NCBI RefSeq assembly: GCF_001434145.1
Contig: NZ_AZED01000008.1
Span: 124,001-188,000, forward strand
DNA: 64,000 nt
Source of the DNA: Lentilactobacillus otakiensis DSM 19908 = JCM 15040
GTDB taxonomy: Bacteria > Bacillota > Bacilli > Lactobacillales > Lactobacillaceae
Reading direction: 5' to 3'
Shown: one piece after another, positions 1,073 through 63,364 of the stretch
Position numbering within the stretch: the first letter of the stretch is position 1
Layout: the number at the start of each line of letters is the position of its first letter
Notes under the pieces: generated by a model
Seen by the model: only the letters and a program-made list of their open reading frames with translations
Database searches by the model: none
Told to the model about the DNA's origin: nothing
Position numbers and translations under genes: made by a program

Positions 1073-1144
1073 GTTCGAGTTACCTTCTTTTTAAAGTTCG
1101 ATATTTTTATCCTACCATAACTCCAAGCAGAACTAACAAAAAGA

Positions 1145-1333
1145 GAGTGCGAAAAAAGGCGATTTGATCCCAGAATTTAAGGGGGTAAATCAATTATTCC
1201 TGGTTCTGAAATGGTTGATTTATCTCCTTAAATGGCCGGGATCAGCCGATTTGAGCACGTTTTTGCTAGGTGATAATGGCGCCACCAAAAAAGGAGACCG
1301 AGGCAAAAGTTTGCACTTTTGTCCCAGTCTCCT
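1145..1333 (+). repeat. H1 structured repeat, copy A, with terminator-like 3' hairpin
   Basis: First of three related copies (others at 20739 and 40450). It begins AGAGTGCGA, then a GATCCC/GGGATC clamp, and an 18-bp stem (arms at about 1178-1195 and 1213-1231) closed by a loop containing ATTCC. All 18 positions pair, two as G-U on this strand. It ends with a conserved GAGCACG and the hairpin at 1292-1333. The stem sequence differs from the other copies while pairing is kept. No ORF in it has a ribosome site. Confidence 0.75.
1292..1333 (-). terminator. Intrinsic terminator of the lipoprotein gene
   Basis: Read on the minus strand, a GGAGACTGGGACAAAAG / CTTTTGCCTCGGTCTCC hairpin is followed by six T. 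It lies just after the stop of the lipoprotein gene. The same hairpin type closes H1 copy C. Confidence 0.85.
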
Positions 1334-7170: not shown

Positions 7171-7290
7171 TGAAACGTGTTCCGACGCAACTGATGCTAA
7201 CTTCTAAGTGCATTTTGACTAAAACCCAAAGTCGGGGTTTCAGCCAAAGCACTCTTAGAAACCGCATCACCCGTTGCTCGTCACACTCTA
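7171..7290 (-). repeat. H2 structured repeat, copy A
   Basis: Read on the minus strand it starts in the TAG stop codon of the membrane-protein gene (TAGAGTGTGACGAG). It contains an outer stem (GACG-AG-CAAC with GTTGCGTC), a TGATGC/GCATCA stem and a long stem (TTCTAAGAGTGC...GCACTTAGAA). It ends GTCGGAACA. Both ends match copy B at 56825 and the tandem copies at 62421-62965, while stem bases differ in a pair-preserving way. Confidence 0.75.
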
Positions 7291-8052
7291 ATCCTTACCC
7301 ACATCCAAAGCTTGATGCTTGAGGTGTGGAAAGACCTTTGTATCCGCGATCCCGGTAATGCCACCTTGGAATAAGAAGGCAAAGATGGTCCCAATTCCGA
7401 AGTTGGTGAATTGACGCGTGATTGCGAATGCCAAGATTGCCATCAGCGTTGGTGGAATGTATGAAGCCCACATCGCTGTAGTGGCATTTCCCTTGAAGTA
7501 CTTGAAACGCAGAATCTGCATTAAGTCATCGGCGGGATGCAGCACGAGGTTGACCCGTTGATAAATCGAGATGGCGGTTCCAATCATTGCGACACCCAAG
7601 AAGTTCAACAGGATGTAGAATCCGATCATGAACGGTGTCTTTGCGGGTGGAAACCCGCTGAACAATGCAGGGTACTTACCGAGGAAGAAATCTTCAAAGA
7701 TTTGAATTAATGCAGAGAAGGGAACCATGAAGACCAGGTTTCCAAGTGCTCGGCGCCAACTCCAGTGTCCAACCAGAATTGCGTTTAAGATTGTAATAAC
7801 AACACCAAGAATTAAGAATGTCCAAAACAAGTTCCAGCCAAATGCGACGGCCAAGTTGGCTTCAGCGGCAGTCCAATAAGCCGATCCCAAGTAGGAAGGG
7901 TGGATTTGCGCGCTGGTAACCAAGGTCAGCACATTTCCGGCAGAGTTGATCACCAATGAAATGATGAAGAAGGTGATGGATTTAGACATTGAGATTGTCC
8001 GGCCATTTAATACTTGGCTGTCGGTTTCCTCATTATTCTTCAAACTATTCAC
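7288..8052 (-). CDS. Integral membrane protein of unknown function
   Basis: About 254 residues if GTG 8052, overlapping the upstream dehydrogenase stop, is the start; a TTG at 8043 is an alternative. After a ~22-residue polar head there are about six hydrophobic segments (SITFFIISLVINSAGNVLTL, LFWTFLILGVVITILNAIL and others). I do not recognise the family; the general look is that of YitT/YczE-like LAB membrane proteins. Overlap with the dehydrogenase suggests co-translation and a linked job, perhaps substrate movement. The stop codon is part of repeat H2-A. Confidence 0.72.
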   Translation of the reverse strand: MNSLKNNEETDSQVLNGRTISMSKSITFFIISLVINSAGNVLTLVTSAQIHPSYLGSAYWTAAEANLAVAFGWNLFWTFLILGVVITILNAILVGHWSWRRALGNLVFMVPFSALIQIFEDFFLGKYPALFSGFPPAKTPFMIGFYILLNFLGVAMIGTAISIYQRVNLVLHPADDLMQILRFKYFKGNATTAMWASYIPPTLMAILAFAITRQFTNFGIGTIFAFLFQGGITGIADTKVFPHLKHQALDVGKD

Positions 8053-19076: not shown

Positions 19077-20732
19077 ATGATGAGTTGTACATTTTATAAG
19101 ATGCACGATTTTGTTGTTAAGCATTTTAAGCTACTGAGCATCGTCGCAATCTTTCTTTGCTCGTTTGCTTCAGCAGCTGTCATTTCTGACAGCGCAAGTG
19201 CTGCCAATATTGATTCTGCAATCACCGGTCTATCCGCCACTTCCGCAAAGGAAGACGGAGCGACCGTTTTACCCGCTGTTTCGCAACAGTGGTATGCAGG
19301 TCCAGTACATACGCTGGATTATGATTTTAAGATCGCTGATGGGACAACCGTTAATAACGGGGATACCGCGACGGTCACATTACCTACTGGTGCAACATTT
19401 AGGACACCAGAAAAGTTCGATATTAAATCAAGCAATACCAACGAAACCGTTGGTCAATTTGTTGCCAATCCAAAGGCCACAACCGGCCAAATTACATTTA
19501 GTAACGCAGCCTATTGGGCCAAATACAACACCAACCGTCACGGTTCACTGGAATTCTCAGTCACTGGTACTCGGTCATTCACGCCGAGCTATCCAGTTAA
19601 CGTCTTCCTTGCCAAGAATGGTTGGGGCCAGAACGAATCCGTTCGTGCTAACGGGACTTTGGCCAAAGTTAACTGGCAGGTCTTGGTTAACCCTAACAAC
19701 CACCAACTGAACAATGTTCAAGTTGACGATACTTTAGGCAATACATCTGCACAAAATTTTGATCCTAAATCAGTCACGGTTACTGATAATGCTGGTGGGC
19801 AAACAATCGCTGCCAGTCATTACACAATCACCCCAACAGATTCCGGATTTACCTTCAAGTGGAATGGAACACTTGATAAGGCAATCAACATTATGTATCA
19901 ATCCGATATCAGCAATGACAATGAATACAGTCTTTATGGTACCGAATTGGATTTGCCGAATACTGCTTCGATCACTGCCAGTGACATCACGACCGTTGCA
20001 GCTGGGACACCAGTTGCTACTTCAAACACCAAGACGGTTGTCCTGACAATGGGCAAAGGTTCCGCAACCGGTGATCATACCGATGCAACTACCAGCGTCA
20101 CTGTCAAAAAAGTATGGCAGGATGTTCCAGATGGTGTCACCACACCAGCTGTTACAGCCAAGTTGTACGCTGATGGCAAGGATACCGGCAAGACGGTTAC
20201 CTTGAATGAAGCTAATTCTTATCAAGCTCAATTTACTGGTTTAGCTAAATTTGCTACAGACGGTCACGCAATCAGCTACACCGTCAATGAAGCTTCGGTT
20301 CCCGATGGATACAAGAGTGATCCTGACGGCAACAAGCCAGTTGCGCCTGATAGCAACGGCGTGGTTACCCTCACCAATGTGTACCAGAAGAAGCCACAGT
20401 GCTTCACCTTCGTTCACGTCACCAAGACATGGAAGAACGTGCCATTCTGGAAGTGCACACCTTGTGTTCACGTGACCTTGTATCAAAACGGTGTCCCTTA
20501 CAGATTTAGAACATTAAGCTATTGTGACTGGTATGAAACCACGTTCCATTACTTGCCACAATATGACGATCAAGGAAATAAATTTGTGTACACAGTCGCC
20601 GAAGACTATGTCCCATTTGGCTACAAGACTAAGACCCCAGGTCAACAAACACCAGATGCAAACAATAATGTCAACTTGATCAACGTTTATAGCAAACGTA
20701 GTCATCACTTCATTCCGTGCTGGGGCTGGTAA
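19077..20732 (+). CDS. Collagen-binding/Cna_B-type adhesin with a cysteine-rich C-terminus
   Basis: 551 residues. The N-terminal hydrophobic segment (residues ~20-42) is a signal peptide ending near SASA. Residues ~50-190 resemble a collagen-adhesin A domain (DYDFKIADGTTVNNGD); ~200-330 a second Ig-like domain. Two Cna_B domains follow (~340-435 with VKKVWQDVPDG and ~440-535 with VTKTWKNVPFW). The second has unusual cysteines at 442, 460, 463 and 483, and the protein ends HHFIPCWGW with Cys548. There is no sortase motif and no C-terminal membrane helix, so its anchoring is unclear. Ribosome site AGGGGG. It is followed within 10 bases by repeat H1-B. Confidence 0.85.
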   Translation: MMSCTFYKMHDFVVKHFKLLSIVAIFLCSFASAAVISDSASAANIDSAITGLSATSAKEDGATVLPAVSQQWYAGPVHTLDYDFKIADGTTVNNGDTATVTLPTGATFRTPEKFDIKSSNTNETVGQFVANPKATTGQITFSNAAYWAKYNTNRHGSLEFSVTGTRSFTPSYPVNVFLAKNGWGQNESVRANGTLAKVNWQVLVNPNNHQLNNVQVDDTLGNTSAQNFDPKSVTVTDNAGGQTIAASHYTITPTDSGFTFKWNGTLDKAINIMYQSDISNDNEYSLYGTELDLPNTASITASDITTVAAGTPVATSNTKTVVLTMGKGSATGDHTDATTSVTVKKVWQDVPDGVTTPAVTAKLYADGKDTGKTVTLNEANSYQAQFTGLAKFATDGHAISYTVNEASVPDGYKSDPDGNKPVAPDSNGVVTLTNVYQKKPQCFTFVHVTKTWKNVPFWKCTPCVHVTLYQNGVPYRFRTLSYCDWYETTFHYLPQYDDQGNKFVYTVAEDYVPFGYKTKTPGQQTPDANNNVNLINVYSKRSHHFIPCWGW

Positions 20733-20738
20733 AAACCA

Positions 20739-20854
20739 GAGTGCAAAACGAAGCGCTTTGACCCCAGAATTTAAGTAAATAAAGCAATTATTCCCGGTTT
20801 TAGGAATGATTGCTTTATTTGCTTAAATGGCAGGGGTCAGCTTCGTTTTGCACG
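20739..20854 (+). repeat. H1 structured repeat, copy B
   Basis: Begins AGAGTGCAAAACG six bases after the adhesin stop. An outer perfect stem GTGCAAAACGAAGC/GCTTCGTTTTGCAC closes it, then a GACCCC/GGGGTC clamp and a 19-bp stem (TTTAAGTAAATAAAGCAAT with its complement, one U-G) capped by ATTCC-loop-GGAAT. Stem bases differ from copies A and C but all pair. This copy lacks the 3' terminator hairpin seen in A and C. Confidence 0.75.
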
Positions 20855-20910
20855 TTTCCACTAGATAACAGTGAACAGTAAACCAATCAAACTTGCACGG
20901 AGGTGGTTAC

Positions 20911-40449: not shown

Positions 40450-40645
40450 AGACTAGGCTGAGACAAAAGTGGGAACTTTTGCCTCAGCCTCTTTTGGTGG
40501 TTCCATTATTACATAGAAAAAACGTGCTCAAATCGGCTGATCCCGGCCGTTTAATGAAATAAACCAACCATTCCAGGACCGGGAATAATTGGTTTATTCC
40601 ATTAAACTCTGGGATCAAAGCGCCTCTCTTCGCACTCTGGTCTTT
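40450..40645 (-). repeat. H1 structured repeat, copy C, with terminator hairpin
   Basis: Read on the minus strand from 40645: AGAGTGCGAAGAGAGG, GATCCC/GGGATC clamp, a 20-bp stem (GTTTAATGGAATAAACCAAT with its partner, two G-U), loop ATTCCCGGTCCTGGAAT, then GAGCACG. It ends in the hairpin AGGCTGAGGCAAAAG/CTTTTGTCTCAGCCT at about 40453-40491. Same parts and order as copy A, including the closing hairpin. It fills most of the 385-base space between the small acidic gene and the flippase gene. Confidence 0.77.
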
Positions 40646-43842: not shown

Positions 43843-44005
43843 TATTGTGTCCTCCAGTTATAGAATTCTTCATTCATTTTAGTATATCATGCAGTAAGTG
43901 CATTGAGGCTGCTTCTAAAATGATAAATTATGGGTACATTTTTCTGAAGGGGCCTTTTAATGGATTCCTTTTGCCGACCATATTGTACTCGTGGTATAAT
44001 AAAAA

Positions 44006-44125
44006 CATAAAAGGAAGCCCCATTGTAACAGGACTTCCCCTTGTGGAAACCGTTTAAGACGGTAGCACATTCTTAGTTAATGAATAACCGCGAACTCGCT
44101 AAAGTTATGGGCGGTTATTTTTTTG
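44006..44125 (+). ncRNA. Candidate small RNA (orphan type I antitoxin-like)
   Basis: Promoter TTGCCG (43971-43976), 18-base spacer, TATAAT (43995-44000). About 120 bases follow without a translatable ORF: GGAAGCCCC...GGACTTCC hairpin, AACCGTTTAAGACGGT hairpin, then terminator ATAACCGC...GCGGTTAT plus seven T. The 5' hairpin is itself a terminator when read on the minus strand (GGGGCTTCC then TTTTAT). Convergent overlap with a terminator at each end is how type I toxin-antitoxin loci are built. The opposite strand here encodes no toxin-like peptide, only a 16-codon frame near 44150-44205. Confidence 0.55.
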
Positions 44126-48782: not shown

Positions 48783-49099
48783 AAAAAAATAATCCGTCCA
48801 TAACAAAGTTGATTGTTAAGGACGGATTATTCCGCGGTGCCACCTTAGTTCAATTAATCAGGGTAGATAAAAATCATCTATTAAGTTCCCCAATTAATCA
48901 CTCTTAGCAAGGGACTAACATCCCTCCGGCAACTGACGTATGCCATCACGTTTCTCCGTACTTGCGAACTTTCGGAAGAACCCTCAGTGGTCCATTTAAT
49001 CATCTGCGTTCGGCTGCACTCTCAGCAACGGCAGCTCTCTTTGCGTGCACAATGATCTTGATCTCCACTTCATCGGTTTTATGGACGAATTAATTGTTG
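48783..49099 (-). promoter_or_regulatory. tRNA-Trp responsive T-box leader with terminator
   Basis: Minus strand: start near 49099; stem I with AGAGAG bulge features; specifier candidate UGG in AAATGGACCAC; T-box AAGGTGGCACCGCGG at 48832-48846. Its variable base is C, which pairs with the G discriminator of tRNA-Trp. A terminator follows (AATAATCCGTCC...GGACGGATTATT plus T run, 48783-48830). Uncharged tRNA-Trp should open trpDCFBA. Confidence 0.92.
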
Positions 49100-56824: not shown

Positions 56825-56946
56825 ATGAAATGTGTTCCGACGAACCAGATGCTAACTTCTAAGGGTGCTTTGACTAAAACCCCAAAACCCGGGGTTTCAG
56901 CCAAAGCACCCTTAGAAACCGCATCTCCCGGGTCTCCTCACACTCT
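56825..56946 (-). repeat. H2 structured repeat, copy B
   Basis: Minus strand, starting in the TAG stop of the purine permease: TAGAGTGTGAGGAGACC. It has an AGATGC/GCATCT stem and a 27-bp long stem with only two G-U pairs (from TTCTAAGGGTGC to its complement near 56856), ending GTCGGAACA. Compared with copy A the GGGTGC/GCACCC and AGTGC/GCACT segments differ on both arms together. Confidence 0.77.
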
Positions 56947-58255
56947 AATTGTTTAAGATCCACAGGAAAATTACAAACACAACAGCCAAACCATACATCA
57001 TGGCACTAACTTCCTTACCACGACGGGCAGCGATCATTGTGATTGGGTAAGTAATAAATCCAAGGGCAATTCCATCGGCGATACTGTAAGTAAATGGCAT
57101 ACCAACTAATGTGATGAAGGCAGGGGCCGCAATTTCAAATTTTTCCCAATGGACATTTTTCAATGACTGAGCCATTAAGACACCGACAATAATCAGTGCA
57201 GGAGCGGTCACTTGACTGGTAATCACCGTCAATAGTGGTGAGAAGAAAGTTCCCAAGATGAAGAGGATACCGACGATAATAGCGGTAAATCCAGTTCGGC
57301 CACCAACGGCAATTCCGGCAGAAGATTCAACGAAGGCACCCATTGGTGAAGTTCCCAAGATTGAACCAGCTAACATGGTTGAAGAATCGGCGATCAAAGC
57401 ACGACCGATTCGGGGAATTTTGTTATTTTTGATAAAACCAGCTTGTTCGGCCAAACCAACCAATGTACCTGCTGTATCAAAGAAGGTCACCAGCAGGAAT
57501 GTCAGCACCACGACAATCAGTTGAACAGAGTTAATGTCGCCGATATGAGAAATCGCAACACCAAAAGTTGGCTTCAAACTTGGAATTGCAGCCAACCATT
57601 GATGAGGAAGTGGAATTAAGCCGGTGGCCATTCCCAAAATGGCGTTCAAAACCATTCCGATAAAGATAGCACCAGGAACCCGCATACTCATCAGGATAAC
57701 GGTGATTAACAGGCCAAAAATCGTTAACCAAGTTGTTCCAACATGGAGAGAACCCAGAGCAACCATCGTATCTTTGTTGGCAGAAACCAAACCGCCATCG
57801 CTTAAACCAATAAACGCAATGAAGAGTCCAATTCCGCCTCCAATCGCAGCTTTTAAATCAACTGGAATTGAATCAATGATCTTTTCACGCAGCTTGAGTG
57901 CCGTTAAAATCATGAAAATAATGGAAGCAACAAAGACGCCGGCTAAGGCAGTCTCCCAAGGCACTTTCATGCCAATCACAACTGAGTAGGCGAAGAAGGC
58001 GTTGATTCCCAAACTAGCGGAAATCGCGATGGGGTAGTTGGCCAGAAAGCCCATCATGAAACAGCCGAATGCGGAAGCCAAGGCGGTCGCAGTGAAGACG
58101 GCACCTTTGTCCATTCCACTTACCCCAAGCACGTTGGGGTTAACGAACAAAATGTAGACCATGGAAACAAAAGTCGTAATGCCGGCGATTGTTTCTTTAC
58201 GGAAATTGGTATTTCGTTTATCGAACTCGAAATACTTTGCAATTGAATTTAACAT
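56945..58255 (-). CDS. NCS2/AzgA family purine permease
   Basis: 436 residues from ATG 58255 (AGAAGGAG upstream; the frame is open 14 codons further). 12-14 membrane helices. Motifs FRKETIAGITTFVSMVYI at the N-terminus, FANYPIAISASLGINAFFAY-type segment, and FFDTAGTLVGLAEQAG are typical for adenine/guanine/hypoxanthine permeases such as PbuG/PbuO. A purine riboswitch is not visible, but a PurBox-like CGAACAAT lies between promoter and gene. Confidence 0.92.
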   Translation of the reverse strand: MLNSIAKYFEFDKRNTNFRKETIAGITTFVSMVYILFVNPNVLGVSGMDKGAVFTATALASAFGCFMMGFLANYPIAISASLGINAFFAYSVVIGMKVPWETALAGVFVASIIFMILTALKLREKIIDSIPVDLKAAIGGGIGLFIAFIGLSDGGLVSANKDTMVALGSLHVGTTWLTIFGLLITVILMSMRVPGAIFIGMVLNAILGMATGLIPLPHQWLAAIPSLKPTFGVAISHIGDINSVQLIVVVLTFLLVTFFDTAGTLVGLAEQAGFIKNNKIPRIGRALIADSSTMLAGSILGTSPMGAFVESSAGIAVGGRTGFTAIIVGILFILGTFFSPLLTVITSQVTAPALIIVGVLMAQSLKNVHWEKFEIAAPAFITLVGMPFTYSIADGIALGFITYPITMIAARRGKEVSAMMYGLAVVFVIFLWILNN

Positions 58256-58303
58256 ATAATAGCTCCTTCTATTGTTCGTGTATAAATAAAAAATCACATA
58301 TTT

Positions 58304-62269: not shown

Positions 62270-62365
62270 TTACCGACATCATGCACTTTCTATATGTTGT
62301 ATTTAAGCACATTATGATAGTGAATACAAACATTGTGAATTTTAATTATCCGTAAAAAGGCAGAC

Positions 62366-62396
62366 AAAAAAGCTGAGGCTTACTCCTCAGCTTTTG
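62366..62396 (-). terminator. Terminator at the end of the H2 tandem array
   Basis: Minus strand: AAAAGCTGAGG, AGTAAG, CCTCAGCTTTTTT. It lies 25 bases past the last H2 unit in the direction of the predicted RNA. Confidence 0.82.
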
Positions 62397-62420
62397 GCTT
62401 GTGGTGTTTGATTTGGGGGA

Positions 62421-62596
62421 CTGTGTTACTTTTCTCTAGCCGAAGCATGTTCCGACGACCCTGCCCCCTACTGTGTAAAACAAAAATTCTATTGATGAAC
62501 GAAAAGCATTCATCAATAGAATTTCTGTCTTACACTCCGACGGCCATGAAATGCCTAGCCCACTCGGCGGGGCCAAAACGGGTCTCGTCACACTCT
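62421..62596 (-). repeat. H2 structured repeat, tandem copy C
   Basis: Minus strand from 62596: AGAGTGTGACGAGACCCG, a side arm (GCCGAGTGGGCTAGGC... GGCCGTCGG), and a 29-bp stem from GTGTAAGACAG to CTGTTTTACAC-type complement with three G-U. It closes with GGGTCGTCGGAACA. No coding frame with a ribosome site. Confidence 0.8.
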
Positions 62597-62627
62597 TGAA
62601 GCTGGATTGTTTATTTTATTTTTAGAT

Positions 62628-62795
62628 CCCGGCTGCTTCCAAAATACGCTCCGATAGCCCAGACCCCTGCTACATAACTAAGAAAAACTAATGATGAGCA
62701 AAAAACACTCATCACTAGTTTTTCTTAGTTATGCTCCAACGGCCATGAAATGCCTAGCCTACTCGGCGGGGTCAAACCGGGCTTTGTCGCGCTCT
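62628..62795 (-). repeat. H2 structured repeat, tandem copy D
   Basis: Minus strand from 62795: AGAGCGCGACAAAGCCC, the same side arm, and a 26-bp stem CATAACTAAGAAAAAC... with one G-U pair. The closing arm is GGGCTATCGGAGCG. The stem sequence has no similarity to copy C, yet length and place are the same. Confidence 0.8.
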
Positions 62796-62818
62796 GTTAT
62801 TCCTCAAGATTTTATTGA

Positions 62819-62965
62819 GCTGTGTTACTTTTCTCCAGCCGAAATGTGTTTCGACGACCCTGCCCCCTACTGTGTAAAACAAAATTTCCATTGATGAACC
62901 AAATGCGTTCATCAATGGAAATTCCGTTTTACACTCTGGGGCCAAAACGGGTCTCGTCACACTCT
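62819..62965 (-). repeat. H2 structured repeat, tandem copy E (lacks the side arm)
   Basis: Minus strand from 62965: AGAGTGTGACGAGACCCG, directly followed by the 28-bp stem GTGTAAAACGGAATTTCC... (two G-U) and GGGTCGTCGAAACA. The ~30-base side arm of copies C and D is missing. Confidence 0.8.
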
Positions 62966-63007
62966 ATTATTATGTACACCCAGTTTTCGCTGGGCGTTAT
63001 TAGGAGT

Positions 63008-63102
63008 AGGGCCTATCAGTATTTGAACTTGAAAGATATATTGGGGGTAGATCGTAAATTCTTGCTTCCGATACTTAATCGTGGAATGCACTGGTAGGCT
63101 CT
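63008..63102. repeat. 95-bp region bounded by a 13-bp inverted repeat
   Basis: AGGGCCTATCAGT (63008-63020) pairs with ACTGGTAGGCTCT (63090-63102), two positions as G-U on the plus strand. No ORF inside. A further 17-base palindrome GGATGTAAGTTACATCC lies at about 63153-63170. These fill the 400-base space upstream of rexB with the end of the H2 array; could be a MITE remnant or RNA. Confidence 0.4.
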
Positions 63103-63364
63103 CTAACAAGATCAATGCAAGCATAAAGCTTTCATTTAGGTCAAATAGATGGATGTAAGTTACATCCAACCCTCATAATAGACCCTTTTTGTTAATGTTC
63201 AATGATAATGTTCCTGAATTTCACAAATCATTTTGATAATCGATGTAAGTACTGGTATAACAGCAACCATGAACCGATTTATATGTGTAAGCGGTCGAAA
63301 ATATTCGGCAAACATTAGGAATGCACTATGGTAAAATTAAAGTAATTTTAAAGAGGTGAGAGCA

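Follow-up and report, generated by a model that had tools for sequence, protein, structure and literature searches.

The EFAR repeats of Enterococcus faecalis are made of palindromic modular units, adopt the shape of an L-shaped pair of stem-loops and have been reported to integrate into pre-existing stem-loops. Integron attC sites combine variable stems with conserved ends, fold as a hairpin on one strand and lie just after stop codons. A review presents ERIC as a small, dispersed element that is co-transcribed with the upstream gene and forms a long stem-loop in the RNA; its effect depends on orientation, and it has been argued that the ribosome induces a change of conformation by which an RNase E site is exposed (PMC2229807). 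Repeats of this class are described as having inverted repeats at their termini, TA ends and duplicated targets. The same review describes the Correia/NEMIS elements of Neisseria, of 107 or 155 bp with 24-bp terminal repeats and a target duplication, whose transcripts form a stem-loop for which cutting by RNase III has been proposed (PMC2229807).

The element considered here was analyzed in a window of Lentilactobacillus otakiensis DNA, that is, the whole stretch of 64,000 nucleotides. It is a non-protein-coding sequence of about 124 nt with a 3' tail of about 14 nt, and folds on one strand as a rod composed of the successive helices P1 (7 bp), P2 (8), P3 (7) and P4 (24-31 bp). The basal stem, a bulge and an internal loop are conserved in this rod, and the sequence of the helices changes freely. 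Three head-to-tail units occupy the minus strand at 62443-62965 with a terminator behind them. The sequence-only reading had described three minus-strand units with conserved ends and long central stems, and these are readily recovered: the AGAGYGYGA motif opens unit C at 62596, unit D at 62795 and unit E at 62965, with start-to-start spacings recorded as 199 and 200, and the three central stems were confirmed. Unit E (62842-62965, minus) is devoid of insert and represents the standard form, with a score of 131.1 bits against covariance model R1; its sequence and pair counts delineate P1 (GAGUGUG/CACAUUU), P2, a 5' bulge, P3, an internal loop resembling GGA/AGUA, a P4 of 28 bp and a 7-nt loop. 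Units D (62642-62795) and C (62443-62596), both on the minus strand and defined by sequence and alignment, each carry a 30-nt optional insert, the cores matched by the covariance model being 62642-62765 (65.5 bits) and 62443-62566 (78.1 bits), respectively. The array closes with the intrinsic terminator announced in the same reading, which is visible in the sequence at 62366-62395 on the minus strand as an 11-bp stem followed by six T (from 62395 to 62366, AAAAGCTGAGG-AGTAAG-CCTCAGCTTTTTT). This terminator is absent from the list returned by a simple terminator scan, probably because some of its T-run is base-paired to A's in the stem. The minus strand of the array folds at -255.5 kcal/mol, compared to -165.5 +/- 7.3 for shuffled sequences, and the plus strand folds less well (-216.3 kcal/mol).

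In unit D the 30-nt module (GCCGAGUAGGCUAGGCAUUUCAUGGCCGUU, 62738-62767, minus) lies on the 5' side, where it separates P3 from P4; the module of unit C was likewise placed by alignment, at 62539-62568 (minus). Unit E had been thought to have lost this arm. The module is missing from most copies of the genome and is found elsewhere on the 3' side, or on both sides as in locus L007; the arm is therefore better regarded as an optional insert, and a gain in C and D fits better than a loss in E. A nested module of 30-36 nt with the pattern GCCGAGUAGGCUAGGC...GGCCGUCGG was observed in either arm, at the two positions of the window just given and in loci L007, L019 and L020, and is possibly a smaller mobile hairpin in its own right.

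Base pairing was evaluated on two alignments. The first (A2) gathers 15 standard copies from the L. otakiensis genome and was produced with plain MAFFT, which is blind to structure. The structure applied to it comprises P1 of 7 bp, P2 of 8 bp with a bulged G, the 5' bulge, P3 of 7 bp, the GGA/AGUA internal loop and P4 of 28 bp; as it was hand-written from the same sequences, it favors the fraction of paired cells (96.4%) and, to a lesser degree, the double-sided changes, which were found in 28 of the 50 pairs. The covariation score of A2 was 0.488, against 0.186 after shuffling and at most 0.109 for any slid version of the structure. The second alignment (A4) consists of 73 copies from multiple genera fitted to the model and hence biased towards it; 96.0% of the cells are paired, 45 of the 50 pairs are changed on both sides and the score reaches 0.817 (0.203 when shuffled). 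Pairs counted as G-U on the sense strand outnumber A-C by 88 to 12. Two positions of P1 are near-invariant G-U pairs across genera, in 68 and 69 of the 73 rows of A4, and such fixed pairs mark the sense strand. The sense fold is also more stable than the antisense fold in 76 of the 78 copies of the genome and in 48 of 52 copies elsewhere. Correction of a palindrome at the DNA level would produce perfect arms, yet no preference for G-U on one strand. The G-U polarity that had been taken as a mark of RNA-level selection is thus borne out by pair counts, stability and covariation in both alignments, and selection of the element at the RNA level is virtually certain.

The scan of Rfam called for in the sequence-only reading was performed against release 15 and gave no acceptable match. 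No match to the element at the gathering score, and none named Lacto-2, was obtained in the 64-kb window; at a permissive threshold the array produced only sub-threshold matches, mostly microRNA-like, and the loci from other genera and from other Bacilli gave no match at the gathering score. Text searches of the literature by name, concept and sequence retrieved no description of the element, with the subscription journals mostly outside their scope, so that an earlier description is possible. Two other structured RNAs were noted in the window: a RatA-like type I antitoxin RNA of Rfam at 43997-44087 on the plus strand (59.7 bits, gathering score 49) and a T-box leader at 48815-49082 on the minus strand, upstream of genes resembling those of tryptophan biosynthesis.

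A covariance model was built and relatives were searched, as had been suggested, and many copies were found across genera. The L. otakiensis genome (2.35 Mb) contains about 78 sense copies once antisense echoes are removed. Where five copies had been counted, the model reports eight in the window, namely C, D, E and five others. The copy at 1144-1262 (plus) belongs to a subtype with a downstream terminator-like hairpin, as does that at 40520-40638 (minus), which lies away from any same-strand stop codon. The copy at 7173-7289 (minus) overlaps the stop codon of ORF 7288-8052, that at 20738-20857 (plus) lies 5 nt behind the stop of a Cna_B surface protein gene (19077-20732), and the AG of that at 56828-56946 (minus) completes the TAG stop of a Xan_ur_permease gene (56945-58297). 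The genome collections searched at the family, order and class levels hold one genome per species, and the E-values of the covariance models are to be taken as rough. Matches to the first model were obtained in 34 of 151 genomes of the family (15 of 40 genera), and a second, broader model detected the element in 102 of the 396 genomes sampled across the order (32 of 80 genera), several further families included. The class-wide sample, which doubles as a negative control, gave weak matches in 9 of 300 genomes, some with several copies. In genome G290, 117 copies were found. Named exact-pattern matches are all from Lentilactobacillus (sunkii, kefiri, parakefiri, parabuchneri and parafarraginis). 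Plasmid relatives occur in Lactiplantibacillus, Levilactobacillus, Latilactobacillus, Lacticaseibacillus, Lactococcus, Weissella and Leuconostoc; none was found for the copies of G290 and G479, and the phage records gave no match to the element. A run of six head-to-tail units of 118-119 bp, spacer-free and longer than the array of the window, was observed at G088:C42:18205-18917 (L173, L176).

The position of the copies relative to genes was established on 72 copies, those second in an array being left out, using simple ORF calls in place of curated annotation. The nearest upstream gene is on the same strand in 59 of these, an orientation ratio of 59:13. The start of the element falls within -3 to +6 nt of a same-strand stop codon in 42 copies (of these 59, and of the 72), where 4.5 are expected from random placement within the same gaps (P about 1e-38). 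The commonest offset is -2 (18 copies), in which the AG of the element itself completes a TAG stop. A Pfam domain was detected in 18 of 20 upstream genes tested; their functions are unrelated and include a ribonucleotide reductase, an arabinose isomerase, a peptide deformylase, a release factor and permeases. Downstream genes are evenly oriented (35:36). The 5' boundary of the element is sharp, and its 3' side fades through the tail CRGCTAGATAACAG and an A/C-rich stretch. Adjacency to a stop codon was found in 16 of 52 copies from other genera, these loci being the best-scoring ones and not a random sample, and less strictly in 7 of 25 copies from other families; several copies outside the Lactobacillaceae lie 14-50 nt behind a stop. 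On an annotated L. brevis plasmid, a copy begins 4 nt after mgtC. About 30 of the 72 copies are away from a same-strand stop, including the terminator-bearing subtype and the array at 62443-62965. A 3'UTR position of the element is very probable, and its frequent placement at stop codons is the key new fact. The terminator-bearing subtype was observed at 1144-1300 and 40460-40638 of the window and at four other loci of the genome, with similarity extending over about 185 bp; these six copies mostly avoid same-strand stops.

The sequence-only reading had proposed a multi-unit structured RNA. A structured RNA read on the minus strand, with many copies and real covariation, stands; the three-unit RNA as an object does not, since the copies are mostly single, many are found at stop codons and the number of units at this site varies from one to several between species. 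Each of the three repeats represents an independent dispersed element, and together they are not a dedicated three-unit RNA.

The explanation that we favor, with somewhat better than even confidence, is a dispersing element whose rod forms as the ribosome terminates and determines what becomes of the 3' end of the mRNA. The element would be co-transcribed with the upstream gene and form the start of its 3'UTR. Judging from the geometry, the 5' strands of P1 and P2 would be hidden under a ribosome that is terminating there, and the rod of about 50 bp could not close until termination is over. The closed rod might then act as an RNase III processing site, as a block to exonucleases, or as both. 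A near-perfect helix of 24-31 bp is long enough for RNase III, and with a P4 of this kind 3'-end processing or protection would be the likeliest effect; a function in RNase III cleavage or mRNA stability, as suggested by the length of the P4 helix, is put forward tentatively. In a wider and rather speculative version, to which we attach a low probability, a so far unrecognized class of RNA elements dispersing throughout the Lactobacillales, and possibly the Bacilli, would reside at the stop codon as SINE-like elements aimed at mRNA 3' ends, their fold coupled to termination and possibly read by the spreading machinery.

Dispersal is apparent from several observations. Copies at unrelated loci are up to 95.7% identical, and their similarity runs from the first A to about 14 nt past the 3' stem. 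Comparison of C1 of the L. otakiensis genome with the collinear G151 reveals many sites occupied in one genome only; presence or absence is clear, and at about 82% identity the insertion junctions are unreadable. These near-identical copies at unrelated loci, the presence or absence between species and a recent amplification in G290 are all as expected from a purely selfish, MITE-like DNA element, whose ends would be the substrate of a DNA transposase and whose hairpin would be incidental. Such an explanation is nevertheless rather unlikely: with conserved G-U pairs holding the terminal stem, the ends do not qualify as genuine inverted repeats of the DNA, no target-site duplication was detected, no register displaying an excess of identity between the 5' and 3' flanks, and the G-U over A-C polarity together with the 59:13 orientation demands selection at the RNA level or linked to transcription. 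The base preceding the element is a T in only 46% of the cases. No clean empty site was found among the sites examined, those of CorA-linked plasmids included; the element-free mgtC sites of plasmids are internal deletions which retain the 3' end of the element. Locus L023 (G000:C19:4614) is a remnant without hairpin, apparently deleted between GGAGCA repeats, and resembles in this the hairpin deletions at the mgtC site of L. plantarum plasmids.

Selection could also act on one folded DNA strand instead of RNA, in the style of REP/RAYT, IS200/IS605 or attC. Hairpins of single-stranded DNA also tolerate G-T better than A-C, attC sites also follow stop codons, and some copies of G290 appear to lie within a pre-existing stem-loop. 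Against this, no Y1 transposase was found in the L. otakiensis genome (G000) or in the high-copy genomes G042, G049, G082, G109, G151 and G290, and the orientation of the copies tracks the upstream gene, downstream genes being even. We consider this explanation improbable. In G290, which displays a recent burst, copies appear to lie in pre-existing terminator-like stem-loops with half-stems on both sides. The corresponding signal has a z of 3.3 in G290 (16 copies) and 1.9 in the L. otakiensis genome, where half-stems around the copies are weak or absent, and is negative in other Lactobacillaceae; insertion into terminator loops was not retained as a general rule, its support coming from G290 only. 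RVT_1 was found in none of G000, G042, G049, G088, G082, G109 and G151, once in G290 and four times in G221. Neither a Y1 transposase nor a reverse transcriptase was retained as resident mobilizer, both being absent from most high-copy genomes tested. The most economical reading is that the element disperses non-autonomously and that its hosts tolerate it, or make use of it, as a structure of the 3'UTR.

The array is located between the divergent genes SDR and rexB, behind no protein gene. Directly upstream of it lies an unannotated, very strongly conserved ncRNA-like region of about 190 nt (62976-63168, tentatively placed on the minus strand), which is 80-98% identical among the Lentilactobacillus genomes compared, more conserved than rexB and unmatched in Rfam. 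Its fold z is -2.7 on the minus strand and -3.5 on the plus strand, slightly better on the latter. A scan revealed a promoter-like TTGAAC-16-TATTAT at 63175-63202 (minus), which is kept in an alignment of six species. One to several units in the same orientation follow the conserved region in kefiri (G109), sunkii (G082), G151, G162 and G164. The array is probably a 3' extension of this candidate ncRNA-like region, and candidate ncRNA, array and terminator may form one transcript; the host transcript at this locus would be the conserved ncRNA-like region and not an mRNA. That the copies or arrays work individually as small regulatory RNAs, and not as part of a 3'UTR, is highly improbable, for even though a conserved promoter-like site and a terminator belong to the array itself, and six copies of one subtype in the genome possess a downstream terminator-like hairpin and are mostly off same-strand stops, most copies abut stops, where a promoter of their own would fit only inside the gene.

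A structured RNA with very strong covariation, present in 30 to more than 100 copies per genome and not in Rfam, would constitute an annotation gap in food and probiotic bacteria that have been studied extensively. Since the element is locked to stop codons, it offers a test of a general question, namely whether a fold in the 3'UTR can sense a ribosome at termination and in this way control the ends of mRNAs one gene at a time. The copies also form a natural series of helices, of one shape and varied sequence, for studies of RNase III and termination.

Among the known systems, a SINE-like spread borne by reverse transcriptase finds no counterpart in most high-copy genomes tested, from which RVT_1 is missing. 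With REP/BIME and their Y1 RAYT the element shares dozens of palindromic extragenic copies, but REPs are short and the Y1 transposase was not found in the L. otakiensis genome or in most high-copy genomes tested. It is similar to attC by its variable stems, conserved ends, one-strand hairpin and stop-codon position, and differs by a consensus without a GTTRRRY-type core and by copies which stay at syntenic chromosomal genes. The copies of G290 appear inside terminator-like stem-loops in a manner similar to EFAR; the element is however a single rod without a branch point. The small dispersed copies, the predicted stem-loop transcript and the presence or absence between genomes are traits of ERIC/NEMIS-type MITEs, from which the element departs by the lack of near-perfect terminal inverted repeats (its ends being GAGYGYG/CRCRUUU with conserved G-U) and of a target-site duplication, usually TA. 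A position locked to stop codons, as in the element, is not described for Correia/NEMIS in the passages of the review consulted (PMC2229807). Compared to ERIC, the element has fixed G-U pairs in its terminal stem, no duplication was seen, and both sequence and hosts are different. ERIC is nevertheless the closest in behavior, as an orientation-dependent effect of ERIC on the upstream mRNA, exerted through a change that the ribosome induces, has been argued (PMC2229807).
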